The position numbers were made by a program, and so were the translations under genes. Positions 4,490 through 47,450 of a DNA stretch of 58,445 bases are shown in pieces. The notes under the pieces were generated by a model. It saw only the letters and a program-made list of their open reading frames with translations, was not told the DNA's origin and did no database searches. The DNA lies in NCBI RefSeq assembly GCF_009936035.1, contig NZ_QWEO01000013.1:1-58445 (forward strand), read 5' to 3'. The stretch's first letter is position 1; the number at the start of each line of letters is the position of its first letter. The stretch is from Neglectibacter sp. X58. GTDB taxonomy: Bacteria; Bacillota; Clostridia; Oscillospirales; Acutalibacteraceae.

Positions 4490-4493
4490 ATAT

Positions 4494-32035: not shown

Positions 32036-32110
32036 AAAAAAACACCATGCGATACAGGTTCGCACAAAAAGGGAGGAAGCATCCGCCCTTTTTGCCCGGT
32101 ATCGCTCCTT
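32036..32110 (-). repeat. Hairpin leader repeat, copy 2
   Basis: Minus strand GAAAGGAGCGATACCGGGCA, arms CAAAAAGGG / CCCTTTTTGTG, then TGTATCGCATGGTGTTTTTT and TATG. CGATAC (32104-32099) pairs with GTATCG (32055-32050). The ATG that ends the repeat is the start codon of the hydrolase gene. Confidence 0.8.
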
Positions 32111-32198
32111 TCGTCATATTGTCCGCGGCAGGTTTCCCAGCCGCCGCAGGCCCTGTATCTATAGCATATGCGCCAAAGCGCCCTGTTATACAGCCGCC

Positions 32199-32540
32199 CT
32201 ACAGCAGGGTGGTCATCATCCCAAGCTCCGCCTGGGTGGTATCCACCCGGGAATATTGCAGGGCCACTTCCCGGCTGCACTCCACCACCGCCGCATAAGG
32301 GGTGTCCTGGGGCACAGGCTGCCCGGCATGGTTTGTAAGCTTGTCCATGCGGATATGCTTTGTCCGCCTGGCCTCCACTGTCACATGATAGCCGGAAACC
32401 GGCTCCCTGTCCTCAAAATACAGGGTGATGTCCAGTTCTGCCGGCTCGTCCCCCTGGTTTAAAACACAGATGGCCTCATGGCTTACATATGCCCCGTTGG
32501 CGGAACTGGGCCAATAGCAGTCTGGTATCACCTTTTTCAT
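32199..32540 (-). CDS. ASRT-family (sensory rhodopsin transducer-like) protein
   Basis: 113 residues. The text SHEAICVLNQGDEPAELDIT, LYFEDREPVSGYHVTVEARR, TKHIRMDKL and ALQYSRVDTTQAELGMMTT matches the Anabaena sensory rhodopsin transducer family (PF07100), small all-beta soluble tetramers. No rhodopsin gene is in the window, and anaerobic Clostridia rarely have one, so the name should not be read as function; a carbohydrate- or ligand-binding role has been suggested for the fold. Sits between a HAD phosphatase and the hydrolase on the same strand. Confidence 0.8.
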   Translation of the reverse strand: MKKVIPDCYWPSSANGAYVSHEAICVLNQGDEPAELDITLYFEDREPVSGYHVTVEARRTKHIRMDKLTNHAGQPVPQDTPYAAVVECSREVALQYSRVDTTQAELGMMTTLL

Positions 32541-32567
32541 ACTGTGCCCCTCCTTTTCCCCGGCGCG

Positions 32568-33353
32568 TTACAGCACGCCGAAATGCTTTAATGCGTGATA
32601 AATCCCGCCCTGGCCTGTCGGGATGGATATGTAGTCTGCCGCGGCCCTGGCCTTTTCCGAGCCGTTGCCCATAGCCACGCCCACTCCGGCCCAGCGCAGC
32701 ATCCGCTGGTCATTGTCCCCGTCGCCAAAGACCATGATTTCCTCCCGCCTGATGCCGTAATGGGCAGCCGCGGCGGCAATGCCCACTTCCTTGCCGCCGC
32801 CCTTGGGGATAATGTCCTGGATGTGCCCCCCGGCGCTGGTAGGCTCAACGTGGGGCAGGCAGGCGATATAGGGCAGGTTTTCCAGGCCGTATACCAGAAA
32901 CTGCAGCACCGGGTGCTCCTCCAGCCTCCCGATGTCATACTGCCGGGGCAGGGCCACCCCGGCCCGCCTGTGGTGCTGGGTGACAGCCTCGCCGTCGAGT
33001 ACGTAAAAGCTTTCATGTTCCTCAATGATCAGGCAGGGGAACTTTTCCTTTTTCACAATCTCCACCAGCCGCCGGATATCCTCCGGGTTGTGGGCCATGC
33101 GGTGGAGCACTGTGCCGTCCCGCAGCACAACAAGCTGCCCGTTTAAGGAAACAAACCCGTCAAACTGGAAATACTGCTCAATAAAATCCACCATGGTGGG
33201 GGGGCGCCCTGTTGCCACAAAGAGCTTCACCCCTTTTTCCCGCAGGGCGCAAAGGCTCTCCTTGGTGGACTGGGGCATAACGCTGCCCCCCTCATGGTCG
33301 ATAAGGGTGCCGTCAATGTCGAAAAAACACGCTTTAATGTCCCGCTCCATCAT
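32568..33353 (-). CDS. Cof-type HAD phosphatase
   Basis: 261 residues. HAD motif I FFDIDGTLIDHEGG, motif II LFVATGRPP, and motif III/IV EIMVFGDGDNDQRMLRWAGV; the C2B cap between them (~85-190) defines the Cof/IIB group, which dephosphorylates sugar phosphates or FMN-like compounds. Start ATG lies 20 bases inside the murC 3' end, so the two are probably co-translated. Physiological substrate unknown. Confidence 0.88.
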   Translation of the reverse strand: MMERDIKACFFDIDGTLIDHEGGSVMPQSTKESLCALREKGVKLFVATGRPPTMVDFIEQYFQFDGFVSLNGQLVVLRDGTVLHRMAHNPEDIRRLVEIVKKEKFPCLIIEEHESFYVLDGEAVTQHHRRAGVALPRQYDIGRLEEHPVLQFLVYGLENLPYIACLPHVEPTSAGGHIQDIIPKGGGKEVGIAAAAAHYGIRREEIMVFGDGDNDQRMLRWAGVGVAMGNGSEKARAAADYISIPTGQGGIYHALKHFGVL

Positions 33354-34743
33354 TCCCTGCCTCCTGCCGCTGCTTATATTTTTCCACTATCAGGTTGGCG
33401 CATTTATACACGTCCCCGCCGCCTAAAGTCAGCAGCAGATCCCCAGGCCCCGCGTGGGCTATGGCATAGTCCGCTGTCTCGGGGAAGCCTTCAAACCACA
33501 CGCTGCCCGGCACTTTTTGTGCCAGATCCGCTGTCTTGATGCCGTAGATGTTTTCCTCCCGCACCGCCAGAATCTCTGTCAATATCAGGTGGTCGGGGAT
33601 AGCCAGGGCCTTGGCGAAATCCTCTAACAGTGTGTAGGTGCGGGAATAGGTGTGGGGCTGGAAAATGGCCCACACCTTCCGGTAGCCCATCTTCATGGCA
33701 GAGGTGAGGGTGGCCGTCAGCTCTGTGGGATGGTGAGCGAAATCGTCCGCCACCGTAACCCCCTCAAACTTCCCCAGCACCTCAAAGCGCCTGTGTACCC
33801 CGGCAAAATGGTGCAGCGCCTGGCACAGGGCTTCCGGTTCCGCGCCTAAAGCGTGGGCGCAGGCAGCGGCAGCCAGGGCGTTGAGCATGTTGTGGCGCCC
33901 GGGCACAGAAAGCTCCACCCGGCCTAAAGGCTTCCCCTTATGCATCAGGGTGAAGTCCTCGCAGGCGGAAGGCTCCTCGTTCATCTCCTGGGGATAGTAG
34001 TCGTTTTTATCGCTGAGGCCAAAAGTGACAAGCTCCTTGTCAAGGCCCGCCACGCTTTCCATGGCCTTTTTGTCATCCCCGTTTACCACCAGCAGGCGGG
34101 TTGCCTGGCTGGCATATTGATGAAAGGATTTCACAATATTATCCAGGGTCTTAAAATAGTCCAGATGATCCGCGTCCACGTTCAGAATTACCGCCACTGC
34201 CGGGGTGAGCTGCAGGAAGCTGTCTACATACTCGCAGGCCTCGCACACCATGGTTTCGCTGTTCCCAGCCCGGCTGTTGCCGCCGATGAGGGGCAGCTTG
34301 CCGCCGATAATGGCGCTGGGATCCATGCCGCATTCCATGAAAACCTGGGTGAGCATGGCTGTGGTGGTGGTTTTGCCATGGGTGCCGGAAACGCCTACAG
34401 TCTGCTGGAAGCGCCGGGTGAGCATCCCCAGCATGACGGCCCGCTCCAGGGTGGGGACGCCTTTTTCCCGGGCGGCCACAAGCTCGGGGTTATCGTCCCG
34501 GCAGGCGGCGGTATACACCACAGCCTCTGCGTCCCCGATGTTTTCCGCCCGGTGCTCTGTGAAAACCGGGATGCCCATGGCCCGCACCCGCTGGAGGGTG
34601 TCGGACTCGTTGCGGTCAGAACCTGTAAGCACATAGCCCCCATGGTGCAGAAGCTCTGCCATGGGGCACATGCCCGAGCCGCCAATGCCTACAAAGTGCA
34701 GGCGCTTTACCTTGTCCAGCAGATTTTCATCAAAATTTGTCAT
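33334..34743 (-). CDS. murC: UDP-N-acetylmuramate--L-alanine ligase
   Basis: 469 residues, usual size. Adds L-Ala to UDP-MurNAc with ATP in the cytoplasm. N-terminal UDP-binding VGIGGSGMCPMAELL, ATP P-loop GVSGTHGKTTTTAML (~115-130), VILNVDADHLDYF, and the C-terminal GVHRRFEVLGKFEGVTVADD, FAHHPTEL. No other mur gene is adjacent. Its end overlaps the HAD phosphatase gene. The promoter is not clear; AT-rich TATAAT-like text lies 70-90 bases upstream. Confidence 0.95.
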   Translation of the reverse strand: MTNFDENLLDKVKRLHFVGIGGSGMCPMAELLHHGGYVLTGSDRNESDTLQRVRAMGIPVFTEHRAENIGDAEAVVYTAACRDDNPELVAAREKGVPTLERAVMLGMLTRRFQQTVGVSGTHGKTTTTAMLTQVFMECGMDPSAIIGGKLPLIGGNSRAGNSETMVCEACEYVDSFLQLTPAVAVILNVDADHLDYFKTLDNIVKSFHQYASQATRLLVVNGDDKKAMESVAGLDKELVTFGLSDKNDYYPQEMNEEPSACEDFTLMHKGKPLGRVELSVPGRHNMLNALAAAACAHALGAEPEALCQALHHFAGVHRRFEVLGKFEGVTVADDFAHHPTELTATLTSAMKMGYRKVWAIFQPHTYSRTYTLLEDFAKALAIPDHLILTEILAVREENIYGIKTADLAQKVPGSVWFEGFPETADYAIAHAGPGDLLLTLGGGDVYKCANLIVEKYKQRQEAGNDGAGH

Positions 34744-34889
34744 GTCCAGTATCTCCTAACCTGTATAATAGGAAAGCCGCGCTTCCCGTTTCCGCTGCGA
34801 AGGGCAGAACCGCTTTTTATATTATATTGCAATCTGGCCCCAAAATAAAGCCCTTTCCTTAAAAATCAGGATAAAAAACAGCCGGGGGC

Positions 34890-34995
34890 GTATAGTAAAC
34901 GCGCTTGAAAATCGGTATAGCCCGATTTTCAAGCATGCGGCATTGCCGCTGGTTCCAAAAAGGCTATTGCCTCTTTTGAACTGCGTACCCTATAC
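34890..34995. repeat. Cloverleaf-type intergenic repeat, copy 2
   Basis: 106 bp, inverted ends GTATAGTAAACGC and GCGTACCCTATAC. Internal hairpins: CTTGAAAATCG / CGATTTTCAAG (perfect 11 bp), GCGGC-ATT-GCCGC (perfect 5 bp) and TTCCAAAAAGGC / GCCTCTTTTGAA. Same order as copy 1 at 13990, but with better pairing: several substitutions between the copies change or restore pairs. It lies between divergent murC and the TlpA-type gene. Confidence 0.8.
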
Positions 34996-35011
34996 ATGCT
35001 GTTTTTCGCCC

Positions 35012-35040
35012 TTGCCGATTTCCCCGGCAGGGGGTATAAT
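35012..35040 (+). promoter_or_regulatory. Promoter of the TlpA-CXXC-ferredoxin operon
   Basis: TTGCCG (35012-35017), 17-bp spacer, TATAAT (35035-35040), 50 bases before the ATG and 17 bases after the cloverleaf repeat. Confidence 0.7.
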
Positions 35041-35089
35041 AAGCCTTAGCACCTATTACTTGACTTTTTCTAGGAAGAGAGGGAAAACC

Positions 35090-35629
35090 ATGCCATTAAG
35101 AAAACTTGTCATACGCCTTTTGCCCATGCTGCTGGCAATTGCCCTGCTGGCCGCAGGCTGCTCTGCCGGGGAGGCGGCGCAGGCCTTCACCGCCCAAACC
35201 CTGGACGGCGGCAGCTTCACAGAAAAGGACATTGCCGCAAAAGATCTGACCGCTATTAACTTCTGGGGCACCTTCTGCTCCCCCTGCATTGCGGAAATGC
35301 CGGATTTGGCTGCCTTTGAAAAGGCCCTGCCGGACAATGTGCAGCTTATCACCGTGTGTACCGACGCCCAGGGCAACGAGGGCAAAGCCAAAGCCCTGCT
35401 GGAGCTTGCCGGGTATGAGGGGATTACCCTTGTCAGTGGGGACGAGGCCTTCCAAAGCCTTCTGACTGATATCCAGGCTATCCCCACCACCATTTTCCTG
35501 GATTCCTCCGGCAAGCAGGTGGGCAAGGCGGTTATCGGCGGGCAGGCAGACTTGTCCGGCGTATTCCTGGACGCCATGAACAAGGCCCTGCAGGAGGGCG
35601 GAAAAAAGGAGATCACCCTTGAAACGTAA
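35090..35629 (+). CDS. TlpA/ResA-like thiol-disulfide lipoprotein
   Basis: 179 residues from the ATG at 35090. Signal peptide with lipobox LLAAGC (Cys24), then a thioredoxin fold with the redox motif TFCSPCIAEMP (Cys63/Cys66) and the cis-Pro region IQAIPTTIFLD. It should be anchored outside the membrane and exchange disulfides there. Followed, with overlap, by a tiny membrane CXXC protein and a membrane ferredoxin; these three together form a recurrent set in Clostridia. The partner proteins probably supply electrons to it. Confidence 0.85.
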   Translation: MPLRKLVIRLLPMLLAIALLAAGCSAGEAAQAFTAQTLDGGSFTEKDIAAKDLTAINFWGTFCSPCIAEMPDLAAFEKALPDNVQLITVCTDAQGNEGKAKALLELAGYEGITLVSGDEAFQSLLTDIQAIPTTIFLDSSGKQVGKAVIGGQADLSGVFLDAMNKALQEGGKKEITLET

Positions 35630-35765
35630 AGGGATCCTGGCAGCGCGGTACGGCCTGCTGGCCTTGGCGGCTGTATGCATCCTCCTGGGCCTTTTAGGAC
35701 AGGAACACATGGGGGTTTTGCAGAAGGCGGTGAAAATATGTCTGGAATGCATCGGGATAGGCTGA
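35619..35765 (+). CDS. CD1871A-like small CXXC membrane protein
   Basis: 48 residues from a TTG at 35619 (AAAAAAGGAG about eight bases upstream), overlapping the end of the TlpA-type gene by 11 bases. One transmembrane helix (AARYGLLALAAVCILLGLL) and a C-terminal VKICLECIGIG with CLEC as a CXXC pair. It matches the small CXXC proteins seen between TlpA-like and 4Fe-4S membrane proteins in Clostridia. Likely a thiol relay in the membrane; this role is inferred from the motif and the neighbours. Confidence 0.8.
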   Translation: MKRKGILAARYGLLALAAVCILLGLLGQEHMGVLQKAVKICLECIGIG

Positions 35766-36646
35766 AAAAGGGGAAGCTTTCCTTCCAGCGCAGGGTGCAG
35801 CTCCTTGCCGCCGCAGTGGTAAACGGCTATGCCATAGGCTTTGCCAAGGGGAAAATTTTCACAGGCGGCACAAAAGCTGTCTGCGTGCCTGTCCTCAACT
35901 GCTACTCCTGCCCTGGCGCCCTGGGGGCCTGCCCCATCGGCTCCCTCCAGGCCGTACTGGGCGGCTCCAGCCGCCGCTTCCCCTTTTATGTGCTGGGCCT
36001 GCTTATGCTCTTCGGTGTAGCGCTGGGCAGGCTTATCTGCGGGCTTCTGTGCCCTTTCGGGCTGGTACAGGATCTGCTCTTTAAAATCCCCTCCCCCAAG
36101 CTGCGGGTGCCAAAGAAAATAGACAAGCCCCTGCGGTGGCTTAAGTATGCTGTCCTGCTGGTGCTGGTGGTGCTGCTGCCCGCCTTTGCTGTGACAGATA
36201 CCGGAGTTGCCCCGCCCTATTTCTGCAAATACCTCTGCCCGGCAGGCACCCTGGAAGGCGGCGTGCCCCTGCTGCTGGCAAACCCCTCCCTGCGATCCCT
36301 CATGGGGGCGCTTTTTAGCTGGAAAGCCCTGGTGCTGGTTGTAATCCTGGCGGCCTGCGTGTTCATTCCCCGGGCCTTCTGCCGCTATCTCTGCCCCTTA
36401 GGCGCTTTTTATTCCCTGTTTAACCGCTTCAGCTTTTACCAGATAAAGCTGGACAAAAGCAAATGTACAGGCTGCAAAAAGTGCGAACATGCCTGCCCCA
36501 TGGCAGTGGAGGTTACAAAAGGCTGCGGCGGCCCAGAGTGTATCCGCTGCGGAAAGTGCCGGGATGCCTGCCCTGCCGGGGCCATCACCTCCGGATTTGC
36601 CTGTAAAGACGAACAGGAAGGCGCCGAACCGGGAAATTGCCCGTGA
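35738..36646 (+). CDS. Membrane 4Fe-4S ferredoxin-type protein
   Basis: 302 residues from the ATG at 35738, overlapping the CXXC gene by 28 bases. Several membrane helices carry Cys-rich loops (NCYSCPGALGACPIGS, RLICGLLCPFGLVQDLL, CKYLCPAGTLEGG, FCRYLCPLGAFYSLF) typical of the NapH/CcdA-associated 4Fe-4S family, and the C-terminus has two 4Fe-4S sites (CTGCKKCEHACPM and CIRCGKCRDACPAGA). It should pass electrons from the cytoplasm across the membrane; with the two upstream genes it would reduce extracytoplasmic disulfides. Confidence 0.85.
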   Translation: MSGMHRDRLKKGKLSFQRRVQLLAAAVVNGYAIGFAKGKIFTGGTKAVCVPVLNCYSCPGALGACPIGSLQAVLGGSSRRFPFYVLGLLMLFGVALGRLICGLLCPFGLVQDLLFKIPSPKLRVPKKIDKPLRWLKYAVLLVLVVLLPAFAVTDTGVAPPYFCKYLCPAGTLEGGVPLLLANPSLRSLMGALFSWKALVLVVILAACVFIPRAFCRYLCPLGAFYSLFNRFSFYQIKLDKSKCTGCKKCEHACPMAVEVTKGCGGPECIRCGKCRDACPAGAITSGFACKDEQEGAEPGNCP

Positions 36647-36671
36647 CTTTCCCCGGCCCCTGTGCTATAAT
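36643..36671 (+). promoter_or_regulatory. Candidate promoter before the M28 peptidase gene
   Basis: GTGACT (36643-36648), 17-bp spacer, TATAAT (36666-36671). The 165-bp repeat copy 2 lies between it and the gene, so the transcript leader would contain the repeat. Confidence 0.6.
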
Positions 36672-36757
36672 GTCCAAAGGGCATAGAAGCCTAGCAAAAC
36701 GGCGCGACCCCGGGCTGTGCCAGTCTAAATTTGAAAGTAAAGAAAAACCGGAATAAC

Positions 36758-36922
36758 TAAGGCTTGTTTGAAAAATCGTAAACACCGTCTTTTTGTCCAA
36801 AACGTGCGTTTTCTGTGTTGGAAATCCTCGACAGGCGACAGCCTGTCTTGCGGGTTCCGCCTTGAAACCGCCCTGTTTTGTCTCAAAAATTCGACACTTT
36901 CTCTATTTTCAAACAAACCCTA
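36758..36922. repeat. 165-bp inverted-end repeat, copy 2
   Basis: Starts TAAGGCTTGTTTGAAAA and ends TTTTCAAACAAACCCTA, i.e. 15 of 17 inverted matches. Same length as copy 1 (28036-28200) with diverged interior; shared text includes CTTGTTTGAAAAATCG, GTCTTTTTG and GAAATCCTCG. It ends 22 bases before the M28 peptidase start. Confidence 0.8.
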
Positions 36923-36943
36923 AAAAAGAGAGGAAGGCTGCAA

Positions 36944-38227
36944 ATGGATATCTGTGGAAAAAGGGAAATGGAACTGCTGGAAAAAATCGGGTTCACCCGC
37001 ACAGCAGGCTCTGCGGAGGAGCTGCAGGCGGCGGAGATTTTAAAGGCGGAATGCGAGGCCCTGGGGGTGCCTGTTATCCTCCAGGATTTTGAAATTGAGG
37101 ATGCGGAGGTTGAAACAGCCACCCTGGAAATTTTAGAGCCATACCAGCAAAGCTATCCTGTCACAGGCTATAAATGTGCCCAGAACACCTTCGGCGACGG
37201 GCTTGCCGCTGAATTCCTCTATGTGGAGGACGGGGACGAGGTGAGCCTTTCTGAAGCCAAAGGGAAAATCGTGCTGGTAAACGGCTTTATGCGGGTGCCG
37301 CTGTTCAAGAAGCTGATGAAGGCCGGCGTGGCGGGCATCGTCACCATGGAGGGGGAGCTGCGGGATAGCCGGGACGAGACGGATTTAGCCACCCGGAAGC
37401 TGCGCCGCACCCTGCGGGCCTTTGGCAATGTGCCCATGGTGCATACCCGGGTGCTGGACGCCTTCGACATGGTGAAGCGGGGGGCCGCCAAAGCCCGCAT
37501 TGTGCTGAAAAACACCACAGTGGAGCGCACCTCCCACAATGTTATCGCCACAGTGGTGGGCACAGAAAAGCCGGAAGAAATCGTCTCCTTCGGCGCCCAT
37601 TACGATTCTGTGGACTTTTCCAAGGGCGTGTACGATAACGGCGCGGGTTCTGTTATCAACATGGAAATCCTGCGGTATTTTGTGGAGAACCCGCCCCGCC
37701 GCACGGTAAAATTCATGTGGTACGGCTCAGAGGAAATTGGCCTGGAAGGAAGCTGGGCCTATGTGAAGGCCCATAAAGAGGAGCTTGCCGACCATTTGCT
37801 GATGATAAACGTGGACGTGGGCGGCCCTGTGCTGGGCGTGGACAAGATAGCTGTGACAGCGGAGGAAAAGCTTGTGGCCTTTGCGGAATACATGATGAAA
37901 ATATGCGGCTGCGGGGCGGCTGTCCGGCAGGGCATCTATTCCAGCGATTCCATCCCCTTTGCAGACAGCGGCGTGCCCGCCATCAACTTCAGCCGGGACG
38001 GCGCCCCGGGCGCGGCCTATATCCACAACCGCTTTGATACCTTAAGCTTCCTTTCCCCGGAGGCTTTGGAAAAAACCACCCGCCTGGTGCTGGAGGTTTC
38101 CCGGGCGCTGATTAACGGCAGGGTGTTCCCTGTAGAGCGCAAGGTGCCCCAGAACATGGTGGAGGAAGTGGAAAAATACCTTTACAAAAAGGATCTGGCG
38201 GAGGTTTCCGAGGAAAAGAAGGGGTAA
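36944..38227 (+). CDS. M28-family metallopeptidase with PA insert
   Basis: 427 residues from the ATG at 36944 with GAGAGGAAGG upstream; the frame is open to 36878 but that part lies in the repeat. A protease-associated-type insert lies at ~95-205 (GKIVLVNGFMRVPLFKKLMK). The zinc peptidase part has VSFGAHYDSVDFSKGVYDNG (His/Asp ligands), FMWYGSEEIGLEGSW (Glu pair), LMINVDVGGP and a final AAYIHNRFDTLS (His). No signal peptide, so it is probably a cytoplasmic aminopeptidase. Confidence 0.88.
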   Translation: MDICGKREMELLEKIGFTRTAGSAEELQAAEILKAECEALGVPVILQDFEIEDAEVETATLEILEPYQQSYPVTGYKCAQNTFGDGLAAEFLYVEDGDEVSLSEAKGKIVLVNGFMRVPLFKKLMKAGVAGIVTMEGELRDSRDETDLATRKLRRTLRAFGNVPMVHTRVLDAFDMVKRGAAKARIVLKNTTVERTSHNVIATVVGTEKPEEIVSFGAHYDSVDFSKGVYDNGAGSVINMEILRYFVENPPRRTVKFMWYGSEEIGLEGSWAYVKAHKEELADHLLMINVDVGGPVLGVDKIAVTAEEKLVAFAEYMMKICGCGAAVRQGIYSSDSIPFADSGVPAINFSRDGAPGAAYIHNRFDTLSFLSPEALEKTTRLVLEVSRALINGRVFPVERKVPQNMVEEVEKYLYKKDLAEVSEEKKG

Positions 38228-38237
38228 AAGCCTATAC

Positions 38238-38270
38238 AAAAAGCAGGCCGCATATTGCGGCCTGCTTTTT
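38238..38270. terminator. Bidirectional terminator
   Basis: AAAAAGCAGGCCGCA-TAT-TGCGGCCTGCTTTTT, a 15-bp perfect stem with A/T tails that serves both convergent genes. Confidence 0.95.
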
Positions 38271-38274
38271 CGCG

Positions 38275-38466
38275 CTATTCTTCTTCTGTCTCTTTGGGGC
38301 TGCCTTCTTCTTTTTCCCGCTCGTATTTCTCTATGCCCTTTTTCACAGCCTTGGCAATTTCATTTTTGCTGTCATCAATGGCGCTGCTCACTGCGGATTT
38401 CACCACAAAATACAGGGCGATAAGGAGGATAATGGCTGTAACGAGGTCGAAGCCCAGGCGCTCCAT
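38275..38466 (-). CDS. Small single-pass membrane protein
   Basis: 63 residues: transmembrane segment at ~9-25 (VTAIILLIALYFVVKSA), then a highly charged helix ending EKEEGSPKETEEE. Start four bases from the end of the ECF S-component gene, so co-transcribed. Family and role unknown. Confidence 0.65.
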   Translation of the reverse strand: MERLGFDLVTAIILLIALYFVVKSAVSSAIDDSKNEIAKAVKKGIEKYEREKEEGSPKETEEE

Positions 38467-38469
38467 GGG

Positions 38470-39051: not shown

Positions 39052-39123
39052 TCCTTCTTTCCTAAGTTCCGGCCTGCAATGCCAGCGGCCGCAAAAACAG
39101 GATAGCGCCTCCTGGGGGTTTTG

Positions 39124-39432
39124 TCAAGTGCTTTTTGAGACAAGGAACACCCTCTCTGCAAAGCCTCCCCGGGCTTCGTGCTTTTTCCGACAGGCTGTAT
39201 CCAGTTCCTCCAGGGTGTGCCCGTCCGCTTCACACAGGGCGAAAACCACCTCCAGGATGTCCGCCAGTTCTGCCAGCTCCCGGCTTTCCCGGTACTCCCC
39301 GGCTTCCTCCAGGAGCTTTTGCTCCAGCGCGGCGTGGTATTCCTCTTCCCCTAAGATTCTAATAACAGGCTTTTCCCCCTGGGACTCTATCATCTGTGGT
39401 ATTTTATCTCGCACCAGCTTGTTATATTCCAT
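39124..39432 (-). CDS. MazG-like nucleotide pyrophosphohydrolase
   Basis: 102 residues from the ATG at 39432 with AGGAGG close upstream. The text YNKLVRDKIPQMIE and EEAGEYRESRELAELADILE gives the all-alpha NTP-PPase EExxE...ExxD metal site. Small enzymes of this type clean up non-canonical nucleoside triphosphates. A frame extension to 39495 has no ribosome site. Confidence 0.85.
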   Translation of the reverse strand: MEYNKLVRDKIPQMIESQGEKPVIRILGEEEYHAALEQKLLEEAGEYRESRELAELADILEVVFALCEADGHTLEELDTACRKKHEARGGFAERVFLVSKST

Positions 39433-40721: not shown

Positions 40722-41082
40722 GTTTCTTCCTCCTTATGCCGAGCCTGTTCTTTTTTACAAATTATACCATAAGCGCGAAACGCGTTGGTATTGTGTCCAT
40801 CGCCTGCCTGACCGAAGGAAAGGCTAAGGCGGGACACATTTTAGATCAAGTATAATAGCCGCTTTGCGGCTATTATACCACAGGGGCTGAGGGGAATCAA
40901 TAGAGGGAAATCCAGGGGGAGTGTCCGAACACGCAGTTTATATCTACGGTGCATACCTATAGGGCTTTGAGTCTCGCCTGCCGGCTCGATCAGCTCATAG
41001 CAACCACCCCACACCCCGCAACCCCTTTTGAAAAAGGGGCGATCCCAAAACAACAGCTTTCCCCCCATTTTGCAACATCCTT
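40722..41082. other. Intergenic region between malic enzyme and uxaC genes
   Basis: 360 bases without a supported gene. It holds a TATAAT-like -10 for the malic enzyme on the minus strand near 40757, the long palindrome at 40850-40878, and a CCCCTTTTT/AAAAAGGGG-type hairpin at ~41021-41038 downstream of uxaC. Confidence 0.5.
40850..40878. repeat. 13-bp perfect palindrome with TATAAT on both strands
   Basis: GTATAATAGCCGC-TTT-GCGGCTATTATAC: a perfect 13-bp stem with a 3-base loop. Each arm contains TATAAT. Could be a hairpin near the end of the uxaC transcript, an operator, or a relic of an inverted-repeat element. Confidence 0.6.
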
Positions 41083-42522
41083 TTAGATGGTTTCCAGGTC
41101 AAAGCCAAAATAGCGGACAGCGTTGTTATAGCAGATGTCCTTCACAATTTTCGTAAGCTTTTCCATGTCATAGGGATACTCCCCGTTTTCCACCCAGCCG
41201 CCCAGCAGATCGCAGAGAATGCGGCGGAAATACTCATGGCGGGGATAGGACAGGAAGCTGCGGGAATCGGTGAGCATACCCAGGAAATTTCCCAGCAGGC
41301 CTGTGTTTGCAAAAGAGGTCATCTGCTTTATCATCCCTGTTTTGTGGTCGTTAAACCACCAGGCCGCGCCCTGTATCACCTTGCCCACAGTGCCTCCCTC
41401 TGCGAAGCAGCCGGTGATAGAGCAGAGAGGCTCGTCGTCGTTGGGATTCAGGCTGTAGAGGATGGTTTTGGGCAGCGCGTTTTTCTGGGCCAGGGCGTTT
41501 AAGAAGGCCCCGGCGCTGACGGCAGGGGAACCGCTGTGGACGGCGTCGAAGCCGCTGTCCGGGCCAAGCCGCCCGAACATGGCGGTGTTGTTGTTCCGGG
41601 TGCAGCCGAAGTGTATCTGCATCACCCAGTTCAGCCGGACATATTCCCCGCCTACAAACTGCATGAAGGCGGTTTTAAACTGTTCCTCTTCCTCCCTGGT
41701 GGGCATAACGCCTGCCAGGCGCTTTGAGAAGATTTTCTCCACATCCTCCTGGGGGGCGGGGCTGTACATAAGATATTCCAGGCCGTGGTCGGACTGGCGG
41801 CAGCCCATGGAATGGAAGAAAGCCATGCGCTTTTGCAGCGCTGCCCGCAAGTCCCCAAAGCCTGCAATCTTCATGCCCGCCGCTTCCTCCAGGCTGGATA
41901 TGGCGGAAAGGTAATCCGGCTTTTCCAGGTTCATGGCCCTGTCGGGGCGGAAGGCGGGCAGCACCTGCACCGGGAAGCTTGCGTCTTCCGCAAGTGCCTT
42001 GTGCCAGCGGAGATCGTCGGCAGGATCGTCGGTGGTGCAGAGCAGCGTGACCCCGGACTGGGTGATAAGGCTGCGGGCGCTCATGGCAGGCTCTTGCAGC
42101 TTCTCATTGCACAGGTTCCATACCTCCTCCGCCGTATCAGCCCCCAGCACGCCTTTATACCCGAAAAACCGCTGCAGCTCCAGATGGCTCCAGTGGTAGA
42201 GGGGGTTGCCGATAGCCTTGTCCAGGGTTTCCGCCCATTTCTGGAAGCGCTCCCTGTCTGGGGCGCTGCCTGTGACAAACTGCTCTTCCACGCCGTTCGC
42301 CCGCATCAGCCGCCACTTATAGTGATCCCCGGCGCAGCCGCCCGCCGGGTTCTCCCCGCCCAGCCACACCTGGGTGATATTCTCAAACCGCCTGTCCTCG
42401 AAAATCTCCTGGGGGCTGATGTGGCAGTGGTAATCCAGAATGGGCAGCCCTGCGGCACAGCCGTGGTACAGCTCCTTTGCCGTTTGGGTGGCCAGCAGAA
42501 AATCTTTGTCCATAAATGCTTT
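41083..42522 (-). CDS. uxaC: Glucuronate isomerase
   Basis: 479 residues from a TTG at 42522, which lies nine bases after GAGGAGG and gives the usual family N-terminus (KAFMDKDFLLATQTAKELYH). Converts D-glucuronate to D-fructuronate (and galacturonate to tagaturonate) in hexuronate catabolism. Metal-binding DYHCHISPQEI near residue 30, WSHLELQRFFG and the C-terminal ARHEYFRRILC-like SYPRHEYFRRILCDLLG are present. No other uxu/uxa or kdg genes are in the window. Own promoter at 42612. Confidence 0.93.
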   Translation of the reverse strand, partial: KAFMDKDFLLATQTAKELYHGCAAGLPILDYHCHISPQEIFEDRRFENITQVWLGGENPAGGCAGDHYKWRLMRANGVEEQFVTGSAPDRERFQKWAETLDKAIGNPLYHWSHLELQRFFGYKGVLGADTAEEVWNLCNEKLQEPAMSARSLITQSGVTLLCTTDDPADDLRWHKALAEDASFPVQVLPAFRPDRAMNLEKPDYLSAISSLEEAAGMKIAGFGDLRAALQKRMAFFHSMGCRQSDHGLEYLMYSPAPQEDVEKIFSKRLAGVMPTREEEEQFKTAFMQFVGGEYVRLNWVMQIHFGCTRNNNTAMFGRLGPDSGFDAVHSGSPAVSAGAFLNALAQKNALPKTILYSLNPNDDEPLCSITGCFAEGGTVGKVIQGAAWWFNDHKTGMIKQMTSFANTGLLGNFLGMLTDSRSFLSYPRHEYFRRILCDLLGGWVENGEYPYDMEKLTKIVKDICYNNAVRYFGFDLETI

Positions 42523-42611
42523 CAAGATGTATAACCTCCTCAGTGGAATGTGTTCAGCTTGCGCGGACACGCTCTAAGTATCAGGGCCTGCGTTTTTTAA
42601 CCCCTGCTATC

Positions 42612-42640
42612 ATTGTATCTCTTTCCTTTCCCACATGCAA
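42612..42640 (-). promoter_or_regulatory. Promoter of uxaC
   Basis: Minus strand TTGCAT (42635-42640), 17-bp spacer, TACAAT (42612-42617). Confidence 0.75.
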
Positions 42641-42693
42641 GAAAAAGAGCTTTCCGGCGGGAAAGTTTTTTAAAGGGAATACCAAAAAAACCC

Positions 42694-42722
42694 TTGACTT
42701 TAGAGGGAAACTGCCGTATAGT
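42694..42722 (+). promoter_or_regulatory. Promoter and likely operator of the XRE gene
   Basis: TTGACT (42694-42699), 17-bp spacer, TATAGT (42717-42722). The -35 and -10 boxes are themselves arms of an inverted repeat, CCTTGACTTTA and TATAGTCAAAGT (reverse complement ACTTTGACTATA), so a dimeric repressor could cover the whole promoter; autorepression is likely. Confidence 0.7.
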
Positions 42723-42759
42723 CAAAGTATGGAAGCAGGGTGGGCATACAGGAGGGCTT

Positions 42760-43359
42760 ATGCGTAGAGAGGAAAACAACGGCGAGATATTCCGCGCCTT
42801 TCAGAAATCCTTCCAGGATTTGCAGGGGGGCATGTCCCTGGAGGCGTTTGCCAAAAAGCTGGGGATGTCCCAGGCTCTGGCGCGGTCTTACCTGACGGGA
42901 ACCCGGTTCCCGGACACCCAGGTGCTGCAGAAAATTTCAGAGCTGTGGGGCGTGTCTGTGGACTGGCTGCTGGGCCGCTCCGCCTTCCGGGTGAAGGAAA
43001 ATGAAAGGATGACTGTCAGGGAGATGGGCCTCAGCGAAAAAGCTGCTGTGCTGCTGCAAAGCGCCCACAACACAGGGGAGCCGGAAGGGCTTAATCCCCA
43101 GCTTGTCAGCGCCATGATTGAGAACGAGCATTTTGCCCGGTTTATGCAGCAGATACAAGTTTATATATCCCGGGCAGAGGAAGTGAGGGAAAAGCTGAAA
43201 GGGGCGGATCCCGGGATGCTGGACTTCTATTCCTACCGCCTGCGGGCGGAAAAGCTGGCGGTGACGGACGTGCTCCATGACCTTTTAAACGGCATGGCGC
43301 CCCTGCCGGAGCTGCAGGAGCGGGAAAAGGCAAAAGGTGTGGAGAAGCCCCCAAAATAA
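42760..43359 (+). CDS. XRE-family transcriptional regulator
   Basis: 199 residues from the ATG at 42760 (AGGAGGGC upstream). HTH_3 at ~15-75: MSLEAFAKKLGMSQALARSY, LTGTRFPDTQVLQKISELWG and VSVDWLLGRS. The remaining 120 residues are helical and not recognised; they may be a ligand or dimer domain. It lies divergently from uxaC with separate promoters 50 bases apart, so it may also control uxaC, an inference only. Confidence 0.85.
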   Translation: MRREENNGEIFRAFQKSFQDLQGGMSLEAFAKKLGMSQALARSYLTGTRFPDTQVLQKISELWGVSVDWLLGRSAFRVKENERMTVREMGLSEKAAVLLQSAHNTGEPEGLNPQLVSAMIENEHFARFMQQIQVYISRAEEVREKLKGADPGMLDFYSYRLRAEKLAVTDVLHDLLNGMAPLPELQEREKAKGVEKPPK

Positions 43360-43372
43360 CGAAACATATAGG

Positions 43373-43411
43373 AAAAGCCGACGCAGCCATCCTAGCTGCG
43401 CCGGCTTTTTT
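43373..43411 (+). terminator. Terminator of the XRE gene
   Basis: AAAAGCCG(A)CGCAGC / GCTGCG(C)CGGCTTTTTT stem with T-run. Confidence 0.9.
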
Positions 43412-43442
43412 GTTTTATACTGTATGGGCAAGGCGGGATTTA

Positions 43443-43602
43443 GAAGCTGTACCGATAGGATTGGTGCGAAGATTTTCGAGGAAATTTTGTGGGATTCAAG
43501 GCGGAAACCGCAAGAAATACTTTCGTATTTCGAGGATTTCCAACACAGAAGCCCGCTAAATTTCCCGAAAAGGTTTGTACAGGAGCCTATTGGTACAGCT
43601 TC
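43443..43602. repeat. 160-bp inverted-end repeat, copy 1
   Basis: Starts GAAGCTGTACCGATAGGATT; the end GAGCCTATTGGTACAGCTTC is its near-perfect inverted copy. About 90% identical by eye to copy 2 at 47451-47610. It ends exactly one base before the stop codon of the GGGtGRT gene (43603). Confidence 0.9.
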
Positions 43603-44610
43603 TTACTTCATGCCCTCATATACTGCCACAGCGCAGGCAACGGTCGCGCCTACCATGGGGTTGTTGCCCATGCCCATAAGGCCCATCATTTCCACGTGGG
43701 CAGGCACAGAGGAAGAGCCGGCAAACTGGGCGTCGCCATGCATACGGCCCATGGAGTCGGTCAGGCCATAGGAAGCGGGGCCGGCTGCCATGTTGTCCGG
43801 GTGCAGGGTACGACCGGTGCCGCCGCCGGAGGCCACAGAGAAATACTTCTTGTCGTTCTCCAAAGCCCACTTCTTATAGGTGCCAGCTACCAGATGCTGG
43901 AAACGGGTGGGGTTGGTGGAGTTGCCGGTAATGGAAACGTCCACGCCCTCATGCTTCATAATGGCTACGCCTTCCAGCACGTCGTTTGCGCCATAGCACT
44001 TAACAGCAGCGCGCTCGCCGTCGGAGAAGGGCTTGGTTTCTTCCACCTTCAGCTCGCCGGTGAAGAAATCATAGTCTGTCTTTACATAGGTAAAGCCGTT
44101 GATACGGGAAATGATGTAAGCGGCGTCTTTGCCCAAGCCGTTGAGGATGATGCGCAGAGGCTCCTTGCGGGCGCGGTTGGCAGTTTTTGCGATGCCGATA
44201 GCGCCTTCGGCGGCGGCAAAAGACTCGTGGCCTGCCAGGAAGGCAAAGCACTTTGTCTCATCCCTGAGCAGCATGGCGCCCAGGTTGCCATGGCCCAGGC
44301 CCACGTTGCGCTGCTCAGCCACAGAGCCGGGAATGCAGAAAGCCTCCAGGCCGATGCCGATGGCCTCGGCAGCTTCGGCGGCGGTTTTTACTCCCTTCTT
44401 AATGGCAACGGCGCAGCCCAGGATGTAGGCCCAGCCGGCGTTTTCAAAAGCGATGGGCTGTACGCCCTTGACGATATCGTAGGGGTCGAAACCCTTGGAC
44501 TTGCAAAGCTCCCTTGCCTCCTCAAGGCTGCCCAGGCCATACTGGTTGAGGCACTTCTCAATTTTGGGCATTCTTCTTTCCTTGCCTTCAAACATGACGT
44601 CATTAGCCAT
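43603..44610 (-). CDS. GGGtGRT protein
   Basis: 335 residues; named for its GGGTGRT motif, here at 262-268 (VASGGGTGRTLHPDNMAAGP). Other conserved-looking blocks: NQYGLGSLEEARELCKSKGF, PGSVAEQRNVGLGHGNLGAM, RDETKCFAFLAGHESFAAAE and AHVEMMGLMGMGNNPMVGAT. No known enzyme activity; Gly-rich loop suggests nucleotide or phosphate binding. Found in strict anaerobes next to a NifU-like Fe-S scaffold gene, exactly as here: the scaffold gene is upstream with a 35-base gap and a shared promoter. TTAGGAGG lies before the ATG. The 160-bp repeat abuts its stop. Confidence 0.88.
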   Translation of the reverse strand: MANDVMFEGKERRMPKIEKCLNQYGLGSLEEARELCKSKGFDPYDIVKGVQPIAFENAGWAYILGCAVAIKKGVKTAAEAAEAIGIGLEAFCIPGSVAEQRNVGLGHGNLGAMLLRDETKCFAFLAGHESFAAAEGAIGIAKTANRARKEPLRIILNGLGKDAAYIISRINGFTYVKTDYDFFTGELKVEETKPFSDGERAAVKCYGANDVLEGVAIMKHEGVDVSITGNSTNPTRFQHLVAGTYKKWALENDKKYFSVASGGGTGRTLHPDNMAAGPASYGLTDSMGRMHGDAQFAGSSSVPAHVEMMGLMGMGNNPMVGATVACAVAVYEGMK

Positions 44611-44645
44611 TTCGTTGTCCTCCTAATCTATGTATGGTCACTCTA

Positions 44646-45338
44646 TTATTCTTCTCTGGGGTCAATATACTTGGCGGCGCCGTCAAAACGGCCATACTGG
44701 CCAATGTTGTTCTTATAGGCCTCGTCAGGGGAAACGCCATGGCGGATGTCCTCCAGCATTTTGCCCAGCTTGACAAACTGATAGCCAATGACCTCGCCTT
44801 CCTCGTCCAGGGCCATCTTGATGACATAGCCCTCAGCCATTTCCATGTAGCGCACGCCCTTGGCGCCTGTGGAGAACATGGTGCCCACCTGGGAGCGCAG
44901 GCCCTTGCCCAGGTCTTCCAGGCCGGCGCCGATGGGCAGGCCGTCCTCGGAGAAGGCGGTCTGGCTGCGGCCATAAGCGAGCTGCTTGAAGATTTCACGC
45001 ATGGCAACGTTGATGGCGTCGCACACCAGGTCGGTGTTCAGGCACTCCAGAAGGGTTTTGCCGGGGAGGATTTCCGCGGCCATGGCGGCAGAGTGGGTCA
45101 TGCCGGAGCAGCCCAGGGTTTCCACCAGAGCCTCCTGCACAATGCCTTCCTTCACGTTCAGGGTCAGCTTGCAGGCGCCCTGCTGGGGAGCGCACCAGCC
45201 GATGCCGTGGGAAAGGCCGCTGATGTCCGAAATCTGATAGGACTTGACCCACTTGCCCTCTTCGGGGATGGGGGCCGGGCCATGATGAGGGCCTTTCTTC
45301 ACCGTACACATATTTTCCACTTCATGGGAATAGTTCAT
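44646..45338 (-). CDS. NifU-like Fe-S cluster scaffold protein
   Basis: 230 residues from the ATG at 45338 (GAAAGGAG upstream). The central part has the IscU/NifU fold signature with cysteines at 49, 56, 77, 99 and 106: GWCAPQQGACKLTL, VETLGCSGMTHSAAMAAEIL and LECLNTDLVCDAINVAMREI. The N-terminal ~30 and C-terminal ~90 residues are extra compared with a minimal IscU. It probably holds an Fe-S cluster for the GGGtGRT protein encoded next; that pairing is seen repeatedly in Clostridia but its product is not known. Confidence 0.88.
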   Translation of the reverse strand: MNYSHEVENMCTVKKGPHHGPAPIPEEGKWVKSYQISDISGLSHGIGWCAPQQGACKLTLNVKEGIVQEALVETLGCSGMTHSAAMAAEILPGKTLLECLNTDLVCDAINVAMREIFKQLAYGRSQTAFSEDGLPIGAGLEDLGKGLRSQVGTMFSTGAKGVRYMEMAEGYVIKMALDEEGEVIGYQFVKLGKMLEDIRHGVSPDEAYKNNIGQYGRFDGAAKYIDPREE

Positions 45339-45407
45339 ATTGGTACTCCTTTCAAAATTTATAATGTTTTTCAGGGCAGGCTTTGCCCGAAATACCAATC
45401 TTATTTC

Positions 45408-45436
45408 ATTATAATCGGAAAGGGCCTACTATGCAA
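45408..45436 (-). promoter_or_regulatory. Promoter of the scaffold/GGGtGRT operon
   Basis: Minus strand TTGCAT (45431-45436), 17-bp spacer, TATAAT (45408-45413), 70 bases before the first gene. Strong promoter. Confidence 0.8.
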
Positions 45437-45475
45437 GCCCTTCGACAAAATTTTGCTGGTTTGCAGGGGGAAAGG

Positions 45476-45760
45476 TCACTGCCGTTCCTCTATCACAACG
45501 TGGATACAATCCCCTTCCTTTTTCCCCAGCTTCTGCCGGATGGATTTCAGTACCCCGATAATATAGACGGTTTCGCCCTTTGGGCCTTTCAGCCCCATGT
45601 TTACAATGCTGCCGTCATAGGGCAGGCCGTCAAACAGGGCGTGTACCTTCACCCGCCCCTTCCCAAACACCTGCCGGATGTCCCAGGGAAAGGCCACATA
45701 GGCCCCGCCCTTCTCCGGTATTTCATGGAGAACCCCATCAAATTCCCATTTCTCCGCCAT
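45476..45760 (-). CDS. DUF1905 protein
   Basis: 94 residues from an ATG at 45760 with AAAGGAGG upstream; the open frame runs much further upstream but across the aldo/keto reductase gene. Text WEFDGVLHEIPEKGGAYVAF, PWDIRQVFGKGRVKVHALFD and SIVNMGLKGPKGETVYIIGV matches this small beta-barrel family of unknown function. It is transcribed divergently from the aldo/keto reductase. Confidence 0.85.
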   Translation of the reverse strand: MAEKWEFDGVLHEIPEKGGAYVAFPWDIRQVFGKGRVKVHALFDGLPYDGSIVNMGLKGPKGETVYIIGVLKSIRQKLGKKEGDCIHVVIEERQ

Positions 45761-45808
45761 AAGCCGCCTCCTTTGCGCTGTTTCTGGCAGCATGTGCCGC
45801 CTGCCGGC

Positions 45809-45846
45809 TTGTAAATAGTATACCATCCATGCTATACTATTTGCAA
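45809..45846. promoter_or_regulatory. Symmetrical divergent promoter with palindromic operator
   Basis: Plus strand TTGTAA (45809) ... TATACT (45833), minus strand TTGCAA (45846) ... TATACT, overlapping almost completely. AAATAGTATA (45813-45822) and TATACTATTT (45833-45842) form a perfect 10-bp inverted repeat covering both. One regulator would control DUF1905 and the aldo/keto reductase together. Confidence 0.7.
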
Positions 45847-45886
45847 ACATGCCTGCAAAGCAGGCGGAAAACAGGAGGACGCGGCT

Positions 45887-46798
45887 ATGAAATATTTGGA
45901 TATCAGCGAGGTGGATGCCTCCGCCATTGTGGCGGGCTGTATGCGCATTGGCAGCATGGAGCCGGAGGCGCTTTCCCGGTTTGTCCATACGGCTTTGGAC
46001 AATGGCGTGAACTTTTTCGACCATGCGGACATTTACGGGGGCGGGGAATGCGAAGCCGCCTTTGGCAGGCTGCTGGCAGCGGAGCCGGGCCTGCGGGACA
46101 GGATGGTTCTCCAGAGCAAGTGCGGCATCCGCAAAAATATGTATGATTTTTCCAAAGAGCACATCCTGGAAAGCGTGGAGGGCATCCTTTCCCGGCTGGG
46201 TACGGACAGGCTGGATTTCCTGCTGCTCCACCGCCCGGACGCGCTGATGGAGCCGGAGGAGGTTGCGGAGGCCTTCAGCCGCCTGGAAAGCAGCGGCAAG
46301 GTGCTGCATTTCGGCGTCAGCAATTTTAACGCCCGGCAGGCGGAATTGCTCCAGTCCGGGTTAAAGCAAAAGCTGGCCGTAAACCAGCTTCAGTTCGGCC
46401 TGGCCTTTACGGGCCTTGTGGATCACGCCATCTGCGCCAATACGGAGTTCCCCCATGCCGCCGACCGGGACGGGGAGGTGCTGGATTACTGCCGCCTGAA
46501 GGGCTTAACCATCCAGGCCTGGTCCCCCTTCCAGTATGGCTTCTTTGAGGGCGTGTTCCTAGGCAGCCCCAAGTTCCCGGCCCTGAATGAAAAGCTGGAG
46601 GAGCTGGCTGAAAAGTATGGCTCTACCCCCCAGGCCCTTGCCACTGCCTGGATTCTGCGCCATCCGGCAGGGATGCAGGTGATAAGCGGCAGCACCAATG
46701 CGGCCCGCCTGCAGGAAATCTGCGCCGGGTGCGACGTGGATCTTGCCAGGGAGGACTGGTACGCCCTCTATCTGGCGGCAGGGAACAAGCTGCCTTAA
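45887..46798 (+). CDS. Aldo/keto reductase
   Basis: 303 residues, TIM barrel. Catalytic tetrad visible: Asp/Tyr in NFFDHADIYGGGECE, Lys in MVLQSKCGI, His in FLLLHRPDALMEP. NADPH-binding end VISGSTNAARLQEI. Closest in pattern to the YdhF-like group. Substrate unknown. AGGAGG lies before the ATG. Confidence 0.9.
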   Translation: MKYLDISEVDASAIVAGCMRIGSMEPEALSRFVHTALDNGVNFFDHADIYGGGECEAAFGRLLAAEPGLRDRMVLQSKCGIRKNMYDFSKEHILESVEGILSRLGTDRLDFLLLHRPDALMEPEEVAEAFSRLESSGKVLHFGVSNFNARQAELLQSGLKQKLAVNQLQFGLAFTGLVDHAICANTEFPHAADRDGEVLDYCRLKGLTIQAWSPFQYGFFEGVFLGSPKFPALNEKLEELAEKYGSTPQALATAWILRHPAGMQVISGSTNAARLQEICAGCDVDLAREDWYALYLAAGNKLP

Positions 46799-46811
46799 CA
46801 AAACAAGCATA

Positions 46812-46855
46812 AAAAAGTCCGGCCCGCAGGTCTCCCTCCTGCAGGCCGGGCTTTT
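46812..46855. terminator. Terminator between convergent genes
   Basis: AAAAAGTCCGGCCcGCAGG / CCTGCaGGCCgGGCTTTT stem serving the aldo/keto reductase and the GNAT gene. Confidence 0.85.
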
Positions 46856-46859
46856 CGCG

Positions 46860-47366
46860 TCAGGGCAGGATGATCTCATAGGCCAGCCGCTCGGTGCCGT
46901 CCTCTATATGGATAATGCCCCGGTAAGAGAGGCCGCTTTTTGCCATCACCCGCTGCATGGCCTTGTTGTCCCGGTGGGTGTCCCCCCGCAGGACGCGGAT
47001 ACCCCTTTCCCGGGCCTGCCGCTTCAGCTCTTCAAAGAAAAGCCCTGCCGCGCCCTTTCCCTTTGCCCTGGGGGAAACGGCTATCCGGTGCAGGAAGCCG
47101 TAAGGCTCTCCCTGGGCCTGCCAGGCGCCCTGCTCTATTACGTCATAGGTGGGTTCGCGGCCAAAGGCCAGGCAGGCTGTGGCAATCACTTCCCCGCCGT
47201 CCTCCAGCACAAAGCCTGCGCCCTTTTCCATATCGGCCCTGGCAGAAGCCCCGTCCGGGTAGCCGTCCTGCCACTGATTTACCCCGGCTGCGCGGAGGGC
47301 GGCCCGGGCCTCGTCATACAGGGCTGCCACAGCGGGAAGGTCTGCGGGGGTGGTTCTACGAATCTG
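46860..47366 (-). CDS. GNAT acetyltransferase
   Basis: 168 residues from the ATG at 47366 (MQIRRTTPADLPAVAALYDE). Acetyl-CoA loop HRIAVSPRAKGKGAAGLFFE and NKAMQRVMAKSGLSYRGI complete the fold. Acceptor unknown. The start codon is the ATG that ends the hairpin repeat; an in-frame ATG five codons upstream (47381) is also inside the repeat. No Shine-Dalgarno lies next to either; AGAAAGGA is on the other side of the hairpin. Confidence 0.88.
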   Translation of the reverse strand, partial: QIRRTTPADLPAVAALYDEARAALRAAGVNQWQDGYPDGASARADMEKGAGFVLEDGGEVIATACLAFGREPTYDVIEQGAWQAQGEPYGFLHRIAVSPRAKGKGAAGLFFEELKRQARERGIRVLRGDTHRDNKAMQRVMAKSGLSYRGIIHIEDGTERLAYEIILP

Positions 47367-47446
47367 CATAAAAATCGCCATTCGATACGGGATTTCCACA
47401 AAAAGCGGGGAAGCCTCCCCTTTTGTGCCCGGTATCGTTCCTTTCT
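47367..47446 (-). repeat. Hairpin leader repeat, copy 3
   Basis: Minus strand GAAAGGAACGATACCGGGCA, arms CAAAAGGGGAgGC / GCTTCCCCGCTTTTTGTG, then CCCGTATCGAATGGCGATTT and TTATG. CGATAC (47437-47432) pairs with GTATCG (47388-47383). It ends at the GNAT start codon. Confidence 0.85.
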
Positions 47447-47450
47447 CTAA

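Follow-up and report, generated by a model that had tools for sequence, protein, structure and literature searches.

The hairpins in the leaders of phage T4 genes 38 and 25 are described as shortening the distance between the Shine-Dalgarno (SD) sequence and the start codon from 22 to 5 nucleotides (nt) and from 27 to 11 nt, respectively, while mutations that destabilize the hairpins lower initiation (PMC3014915). Here we describe a hairpin repeat represented by three copies in contig NZ_QWEO01000013.1 of Neglectibacter sp. X58 (assembly GCF_009936035.1; positions 1 to 58,445 of the forward strand, 58,445 nt in all, referred to below as the window). We consider it likely that the repeat is an insertion that supplies the genes behind it with a hairpin-bridged, or 'accommodated', ribosome-binding site (RBS). 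As in T4 genes 25 and 38 there is no SD at the normal distance from the start codon, and an SD lies beyond a hairpin, which in the repeat family is backed by covariation. Genes 25 and 38 are two single phage genes, whereas the repeat is one family standing at ~80 unrelated chromosomal genes, where it was seemingly inserted. Its apex is larger and free to vary, a second GG is kept 3' of the stem, and the closed stem would leave 14–16 nt, compared with the 5 and 11 nt given for T4. The split RBS of Escherichia coli thrS is likewise a feature of a single gene, whereas here it is a dispersed repeat that parts the SD from the start codon.

The preliminary description of the window had asked how often copies across the genome end at gene starts. 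The draft genome that holds the window (G000; 3,357,762 bases in 185 contigs) was searched with a covariance model of the hairpin built from 25 copies, yielding 99 copies at E≤1, 80 of them at E≤0.001. The 20-nt core, GAAAGGAACGATACCGGGCA, occurs at 55 genome sites with up to three mismatches, compared with 2 for the reversed control. The repeat is thus present far beyond chance in its own genome and probably constitutes an interspersed insertion family with a unit of ~90–95 nt; tandem copies are present at C101, C32 and C161. Literature searches found no description of it. With a gene start defined as a start codon lying between 9 nt upstream and 5 nt downstream of the match end, the 3' start codon opens an open reading frame (ORF) of at least 60 amino acids (aa) behind 81 of the 99 copies, 78 of these ORFs being at least 100 aa long. 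The same was true of 11/97 antisense controls and 431/1940 random upstream sites on the same strand. The outcome is the opposite of what the preliminary description had named as refuting its proposal, namely that most copies would lie elsewhere than at gene starts. The copies counted in relatives, a subset of those listed by the genome searches, gave a similar picture: of 67 distinct copies, 62 are followed by an ORF of 60 aa or by a frame still open at the end of the locus after at least 30 codons, and the SD is present in 70 of 71 rows. A promoter role is not favoured: of the 56 copies with a codirectional upstream ORF, 24 begin within 50 nt of its end. By eye, the A-rich lead of the repeat contains no -35/-10 promoter pattern, although no promoter scan was run.

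The 5' part of the consensus comprises this A-rich lead (GTGTGAAAAATACAAA), the SD GAAAGGA and a basal stem, P1 (CGATAC/GTATCG). Above P1 are a 1x1 mismatch, a two-pair helix, a GAAT bulge on the 3' side and an apical stem (GCACAAAAGG/CTTTTTGTGC), while the 3' part consists of CATGGCGATT and three variable bases, which are followed by the start codon. In a structure alignment of 102 rows (101 distinct; some hits lie outside the 99 copies and one locus is entered twice) 92.1% of the stem cells are paired overall and 95.4% in P1, and 93 cells display double changes, against a mean of 34.7 in shuffled alignments, none of the 500 shuffles being as high. Sliding the partner columns by 1–3 positions reduces pairing to 48–63%. 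The corresponding alignment from relatives (55 rows, 53 distinct) is 90.4% paired, with 52 double changes versus 15.5 when shuffled, and again none of 500 shuffles as high. In relative G057 P1 reads CGATTC/GAATCG, and each of the two copies common to the Neglectibacter genome and relative G040 (C89:333199 and C89:126190 in the former) differs between the two by an A-T to G-C swap in P1. On the evidence of these alignments, P1 is kept by compensatory changes.

The layout around the stem was read from alignment columns in 97 copies, comprising 81 that precede a gene and 16 others, some of which stand before short frames (27 and 42–47 codons) that might be real; the tandem partners C101:10915 and C32:28908 were omitted. 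In gene-preceding copies the linker from GAAAGGA to the P1 core is 2 nt in 78/81, and that from P1 to the start codon is 14–15 nt in 66/81, seven of these via an in-frame ATG two codons downstream. The interval enclosed by P1 measures 7–47 nt, so that the linear SD-to-start distance spreads from 33 to 79 nt, and the apex varies or is lost while the 5' GAAAGGA stays. In the rumen relative L132 (RUG11193; reverse complement, ~3438–3700) the left and right parts are ~220 nt apart, placing the SD ~250 nt from the start, and the copy still ends at a start codon (ATGAAAGTTTTAGTAGTC...). Among the unpaired bases 3' of the stem the GG at -10/-9 is the most strongly conserved, with G at -10 in 51/51 and G at -9 in 92% of the copies in the main register. 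All 18 short-apex copies retain the first G and 15 of them the GG, and the G040 copy orthologous to C89:126190 keeps both the 14-nt linker and the GG at -10/-9.

The genes behind the repeat are diverse. Pfam matches (E≤1e-8) were sought for 30 of the 78 proteins that reach 100 aa, and were found for all but three. They include xylose isomerase-like barrels, amidohydrolase, P-type ATPase, YceG, ParA, Mntp and ABC proteins, as well as the functionally unrelated LGT, TruB, RapZ, RNB-domain RNase, ribulose-phosphate epimerase, LacZ-like protein, FliS and PRA-PH, among others. No common function was seen among the 30 proteins. That copies stand before many genes, and that many of them display the consensus GAAT bulge and the apical stem, would fit a cis-regulatory RNA of a regulon (protein-binding, thermosensing or ligand-binding) in which bridging is secondary. 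We regard such a regulated leader as improbable, as the genes examined lack functional relationship and the apex shrinks to a few nt or is replaced (for example in L123) while the SD, P1 and their spacing stay. Furthermore, nearly all the orthologues examined in one relative are without the hairpin; it is likewise absent from the 95 nt upstream of all 15 readable genus orthologues of the window's hydrolase (the gene behind copy 2, described below), where the bases are purine-rich. Rfam gave no match on the repeat, either in the window at the gathering threshold or at seven loci at E≤1.

The bridged-RBS reading is supported by where the elements of the hairpin are retained. The distal AGG[AG] is intact in 76/81 gene-preceding copies compared with 10/16 others, and P1 has five of five pairs in 72/81 versus 8/16. 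An intact SD together with a full P1 is found in 71/81 versus 5/16 (p=9e-6), in 59/64 versus 3/10 above 40 bits and in 41/43 versus 3/7 above 70 bits. A broken P1 is also seen in copy 1 of the window, which does not directly adjoin a long ORF. It thus seems that SD and stem persist in copies on which a gene relies. If the repeat were a neutral mobile hairpin, inserted passively before genes that are initiated without SD help, GAAAGGA would be merely a part of the repeat, and the five of 81 gene-preceding copies without a clear SD would be expected. This is very unlikely, as it accounts neither for the retention of SD and P1 in front of genes and their decay elsewhere, nor for a stem-to-start linker held at 14–15 nt.

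The preliminary description spoke of a repeat that ends in a start codon. The start codon instead belongs to the host gene, as the three bases that precede it are nearly random across copies and most repeat-free orthologues start there. Comparison with G040 took the proteins from the second ATG onward and used ~1.96 Mb of that relative, in which 55 of the 81 proteins were matched and the 47 with at least 50% identity were retained. A start codon is found at the aligned residue in 42/47 orthologues, two of which also carry the hairpin; the chosen start sometimes differs from the aligned one by one or two codons, and at C102:90378 the match to G040 begins at residue 51. In the window hydrolase the PF02275 match runs from residue 2, which corresponds to profile position 1. 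Matches to this protein occur in 18/29 genus genomes, its own counted, and orthologues have M-C or V-C at this position in 14 of the 17 others (G041 starts GTG-TGT; G006 and G023 are unreadable). Translation from an upstream ATG beside the stem (ATGGCGATTnnnATG), which would give an N-terminal tag or a leader peptide, is the least credible of the alternatives: this ATG is present in 44/81 copies and in frame in 29 of the 44, but it is absent from 37/81 and out of frame in 15/44, its A at -12 is kept in 70% as against 100% for the G at -10, most orthologues align from the second ATG, and in the window hydrolase it opens a different frame of 73 codons, so that only the second ATG would give a working enzyme, the N-terminal nucleophile of the family being Cys2, which becomes exposed only when translation begins at that ATG.

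Genes with the repeat have lost the SD that their orthologues retain next to the start codon. The median local pairing energy with the anti-SD (-20 to -4) is -2.6 kcal/mol for element genes and -10.3 for the G040 orthologues (n=47, Wilcoxon p=8.8e-9), and a core SD motif is local in 4/47 versus 33/47, respectively, and in 4/81 over all element genes. For 60 ordinary genes of the Neglectibacter genome the median is -10.0 kcal/mol, with values weaker than -5 in 11/60 compared with 36/47 element genes. A second, orphan SD is often found just upstream of the left end of the repeat. When the flanks were joined to the three bases before the start codon, an analysis possible for 76/81 copies (those with an anchored SD and enough flank), a strong SD (≤-8) was present in 24/76 compared with 8.3% at distant joins (p=6e-9), and in 14/33 of the higher-scoring copies, which points to relic SDs in about a third of the family. 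Empty sites that align on both flanks were identified in G040 for C116:17581 and C49:34189; relative to them, the native SD and TTTT-ATG or TTCTC-ATG are parted by an insertion of ~90 nt. The aligner did not place the left flank of C89:219407; by eye, AAGGAGGAAA and CATATG match. The simplest reading of these sequences is that insertion separated the native SD from the native start codon and that the GAAAGGA of the repeat took over.

We therefore propose the following scheme. A copy would land in the sense orientation, as in 81/99 cases, between the native SD and the native start codon, leaving the former ~90 nt farther upstream. It would bring with it the A-rich lead, the SD GAAAGGA, the hairpin and a short tail that ends ~3 nt before the host start codon. 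Once the basal stem had closed, the ribosome would bind GAAAGGA at one flank of the stem base and place the start codon, at the opposite flank, in the P site, so that the gene would still be translated from its old start codon. Initiation across the closed stem is what we infer from the conserved layout.

Several observations weigh against this scheme. No ORF of 60 aa follows 18/99 copies. The pairing statistics derive from alignments that were both fitted to the structure, which favours pairing, and the search model favours copies that keep the SD and stem, although it does so alike in the gene-preceding and other groups. When the leaders are folded alone, the probability of P1 exceeds 0.5 in only 54/81; it is 0.00 and 0.10 for C89:333199 and C89:126190, and 0.34 for copy 3 of the window, in which P1 is absent from the minimum-energy fold. 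Five leaders compared with their shuffles show no clear gain in folding stability (z -0.14 to -1.34). The SD is predicted to be unpaired 0.68 of the time compared with 0.55 with shuffled interiors, and together with the modest P1 probabilities this suggests that the closed form of some leaders may have to be promoted by the ribosome. A strong relic SD is lacking in 52/76 copies. At C125:110538 the GAAAGGA of the repeat aligns with a native GAAAGGA rather than with an upstream relic, and this apex-deleted copy also has a local GGAGG. Finally, bridged SDs are not in evidence outside the family. A model-free scan of loci in the Neglectibacter genome gave 49 hits, compared with 39, 17, 11, 8 and 6 for five control motif sets, the first of which is contaminated because GAAAG overlaps GAAAGGA; 42 of the 49 are known copies and a 43rd, in L108, is also a covariance-model hit. 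In G040 the scan gave 33 hits, at least eight of them family copies, against 35, 39, 29, 21 and 9 for the controls. With no excess beyond the family there is no sign that the device is in general use.

The distance itself also counts against the scheme. The preliminary description supposed that the closed stem restores a normal SD-to-start distance. Closure of the core pairs leaves a median of 16 nt, or 14 nt if the outer C-G pair closes, which exceeds the spacing of AAAGGA in ordinary genes of the same genome (mostly 8–11 nt, with a tail to 13). The proposal of hairpin bridging in that description is otherwise supported by the stem covariation, the retention of the distal SD, the lack of a local one and the T4-like layout. 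The last GG of an ordinary AGGAGG lies 6–9 nt from the ATG, the same place as the conserved GG of the repeat, and AAAGGA and GG may therefore be the two halves of one split SD, with the 16S tail spanning the stem base to pair with both. That the GG is predicted to be unpaired only 0.35 of the time speaks against this. In its fullest form, the repeat would be a selfish element specialized for the SD–start gap: it would split the initiation site of its host gene yet persist through its own AAAGGA and GG half-sites, which the 16S tail would join across a three-way junction into an AAAGGA-GG SD with ordinary spacing. Core genes would then tolerate the insertion, and dozens of genes would depend on a mobile RBS. 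We offer this version tentatively, as possible rather than probable.

The distribution of the repeat among relatives is patchy. Copies per genus genome number 102 in the Neglectibacter genome itself, then 20, 6 and 5, followed by genomes with 1–2 or none. Counting the host genome each time, the repeat was detected in 11/29 genus genomes (E≤0.01), in 12/250 family genomes under stricter filters with at most 17 candidates scored per genome, and in 2/295 order-level genomes under strict filters (E≤1e-5), the second being G010. The exact core pattern is present in 19 stretches among 84,980 species genomes, labelled Oscillospiraceae, Ruminococcaceae, Acutalibacter, Clostridia or Clostridiales, plus bacterium D16-76, and viral contigs contained no exact match to the core. 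For 60/113 copies the nearest neighbour is in the same genome (mean 30.8 and maximum 48 in 2000 label shuffles), indicating that separate versions were amplified within individual lineages. An identical 77-nt copy is shared by L143 (G006:C32:1994-2070) and C125:80456-80532 of the Neglectibacter genome, while two other proteins compared between these genomes are 78–80% identical; the identical copy would reflect transfer or contamination of a draft genome.

In being short, structured, patchy and present in many copies with lineage-specific subfamilies, the family resembles miniature inverted-repeat transposable elements (MITEs) and small interspersed repeats such as pneumococcal BOX and RUP. 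Like an insertion element or MITE it also combines multiple similar copies with empty orthologous sites, at two alignable loci (two others are not clear). Unlike BOX and RUP, it is found mostly in one spot, the SD–start gap, and in one orientation, and would act as a translation start region. It differs further in that the left-end tabulation revealed neither terminal repeats nor target duplication, although no formal search was made, and this absence counts against an insertion; the left end is not sharp, and by eye TT stands on both sides at some loci. Palindromic elements derived from IS200/IS605 are hairpins whose insertion is fixed in orientation and directed to the 3' side of a short target, and an insertion of this type would explain the placement of the repeat. 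The genome contains four Y1 transposase loci, but five motifs representing the repeat ends were not found in the ~3.2–3.3 kb around each of them, a further point against the insertion scheme; this search covered the Y1 family, and one unrelated partial match was seen in L276. Movement of the unit as DNA appears probable from its dispersal. The notion of a mobile cassette in the preliminary description is supported as to dispersal, by the lineage-specific copies, relic SDs and empty sites, whereas mobility itself is deduced.

In the window the core GAAAGGAACGATACCGGGCA is exact at 47426-47445 and has one mismatch at 32093-32112 and at 19410-19429. These belong to the three related minus-strand leaders recognized in the preliminary description, all of which were located there. 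The features, all on the minus strand, are as follows.

47367..47457, minus strand: copy 3 of the repeat (model hit 47368-47457 plus host start codon 47369-47367; 82.3 bits, E 1.8e-13)
47439..47445, minus strand: distal Shine-Dalgarno GAAAGGA of copy 3 (from the sequence)
47432..47437, minus strand: 5' arm CGATAC of basal stem P1, copy 3 (sequence and covariation)
47383..47388, minus strand: 3' arm GTATCG of basal stem P1, copy 3 (sequence and covariation)
47378..47379, minus strand: conserved GG 3' of the stem in copy 3, 8 nt upstream of the start codon; it may form the second half of a split SD (conservation)
46860..47369, minus strand: GNAT acetyltransferase gene, starting at the ATG behind copy 3 (PF00583, E 4.5e-12)
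32033..32124, minus strand: copy 2 of the repeat (hit 32035-32124 plus host start codon 32035-32033; 82.5 bits)
32106..32112, minus strand: distal Shine-Dalgarno GAAAGGA of copy 2 (from the sequence)
32099..32104, minus strand: 5' arm CGATAC of P1 in copy 2, with a possible additional outer G-C pair at 32105/32049
32050..32055, minus strand: 3' arm GTATCG of P1, copy 2 (sequence and covariation)
31052..32035, minus strand: choloylglycine/linear amide C-N hydrolase gene (PF02275, E 4.9e-92; frame starts M-C)
19350..19441, minus strand: copy 1 of the repeat, with no long ORF starting directly behind it (basal stem degraded to 3/5 core pairs)
19269..19352, minus strand: 27-codon frame from the ATG (19352) that follows copy 1; it overlaps the sigma-gene start
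18812..19282, minus strand: sigma-70-type gene (regions 2 and 4; PF04542, PF08281), start 19282, with its own G-rich SD

The last ATG of copies 2 and 3 starts two unrelated genes, as had been proposed, the products being the PF02275 hydrolase and the PF00583 GNAT protein, and inspection of the sequence agrees that no SD adjoins either start. Matches to the GNAT protein begin at residue 1 or 2 in 24/29 genus genomes, its own counted. The features said to be common to the three leaders hold in part: the shared motif is present, but copy 2 ends CATGGTGTTTTTTTATG rather than CATGGCGATTTTTATG, and copy 1 has GAAGGGA and the damaged basal stem listed above. The ATG of copy 1 does open a 27-codon frame that runs over the sigma start at 19282. 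This frame stops 11 nt inside the sigma gene and could couple translation of the two.

A second interspersed repeat, with the core AAGGCGGAAACCGCAAG, lies in the window at 47506-47522 (plus strand), 43498-43514 (plus) and 36847-36863 (minus), and has 31 genome sites at up to one mismatch compared with 1 for the reversed control. It lies a short way upstream of copy 3 and also follows a truncated hairpin copy at C138:9565 (L028). The gene for a small signal recognition particle (SRP) RNA (RF00169; 47726-47823, plus strand) is located ~270 bp from copy 3 on the opposite strand, and four tRNA genes are clustered at 4289-4735 (minus strand).

In the portion of the literature covered, hairpin-bridged initiation is documented for single phage and enterobacterial genes. 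The repeat family would extend it to ~80 unrelated genes, core genes such as LGT and TruB included, which form a natural library of divergent sequences apparently kept working by selection and would reveal which elements are important to bridged initiation. Gene callers that rely on the SD may misjudge the starts or the strength of repeat-led genes. More generally, the family suggests that an insertion can take over the translation initiation of a gene without silencing it.

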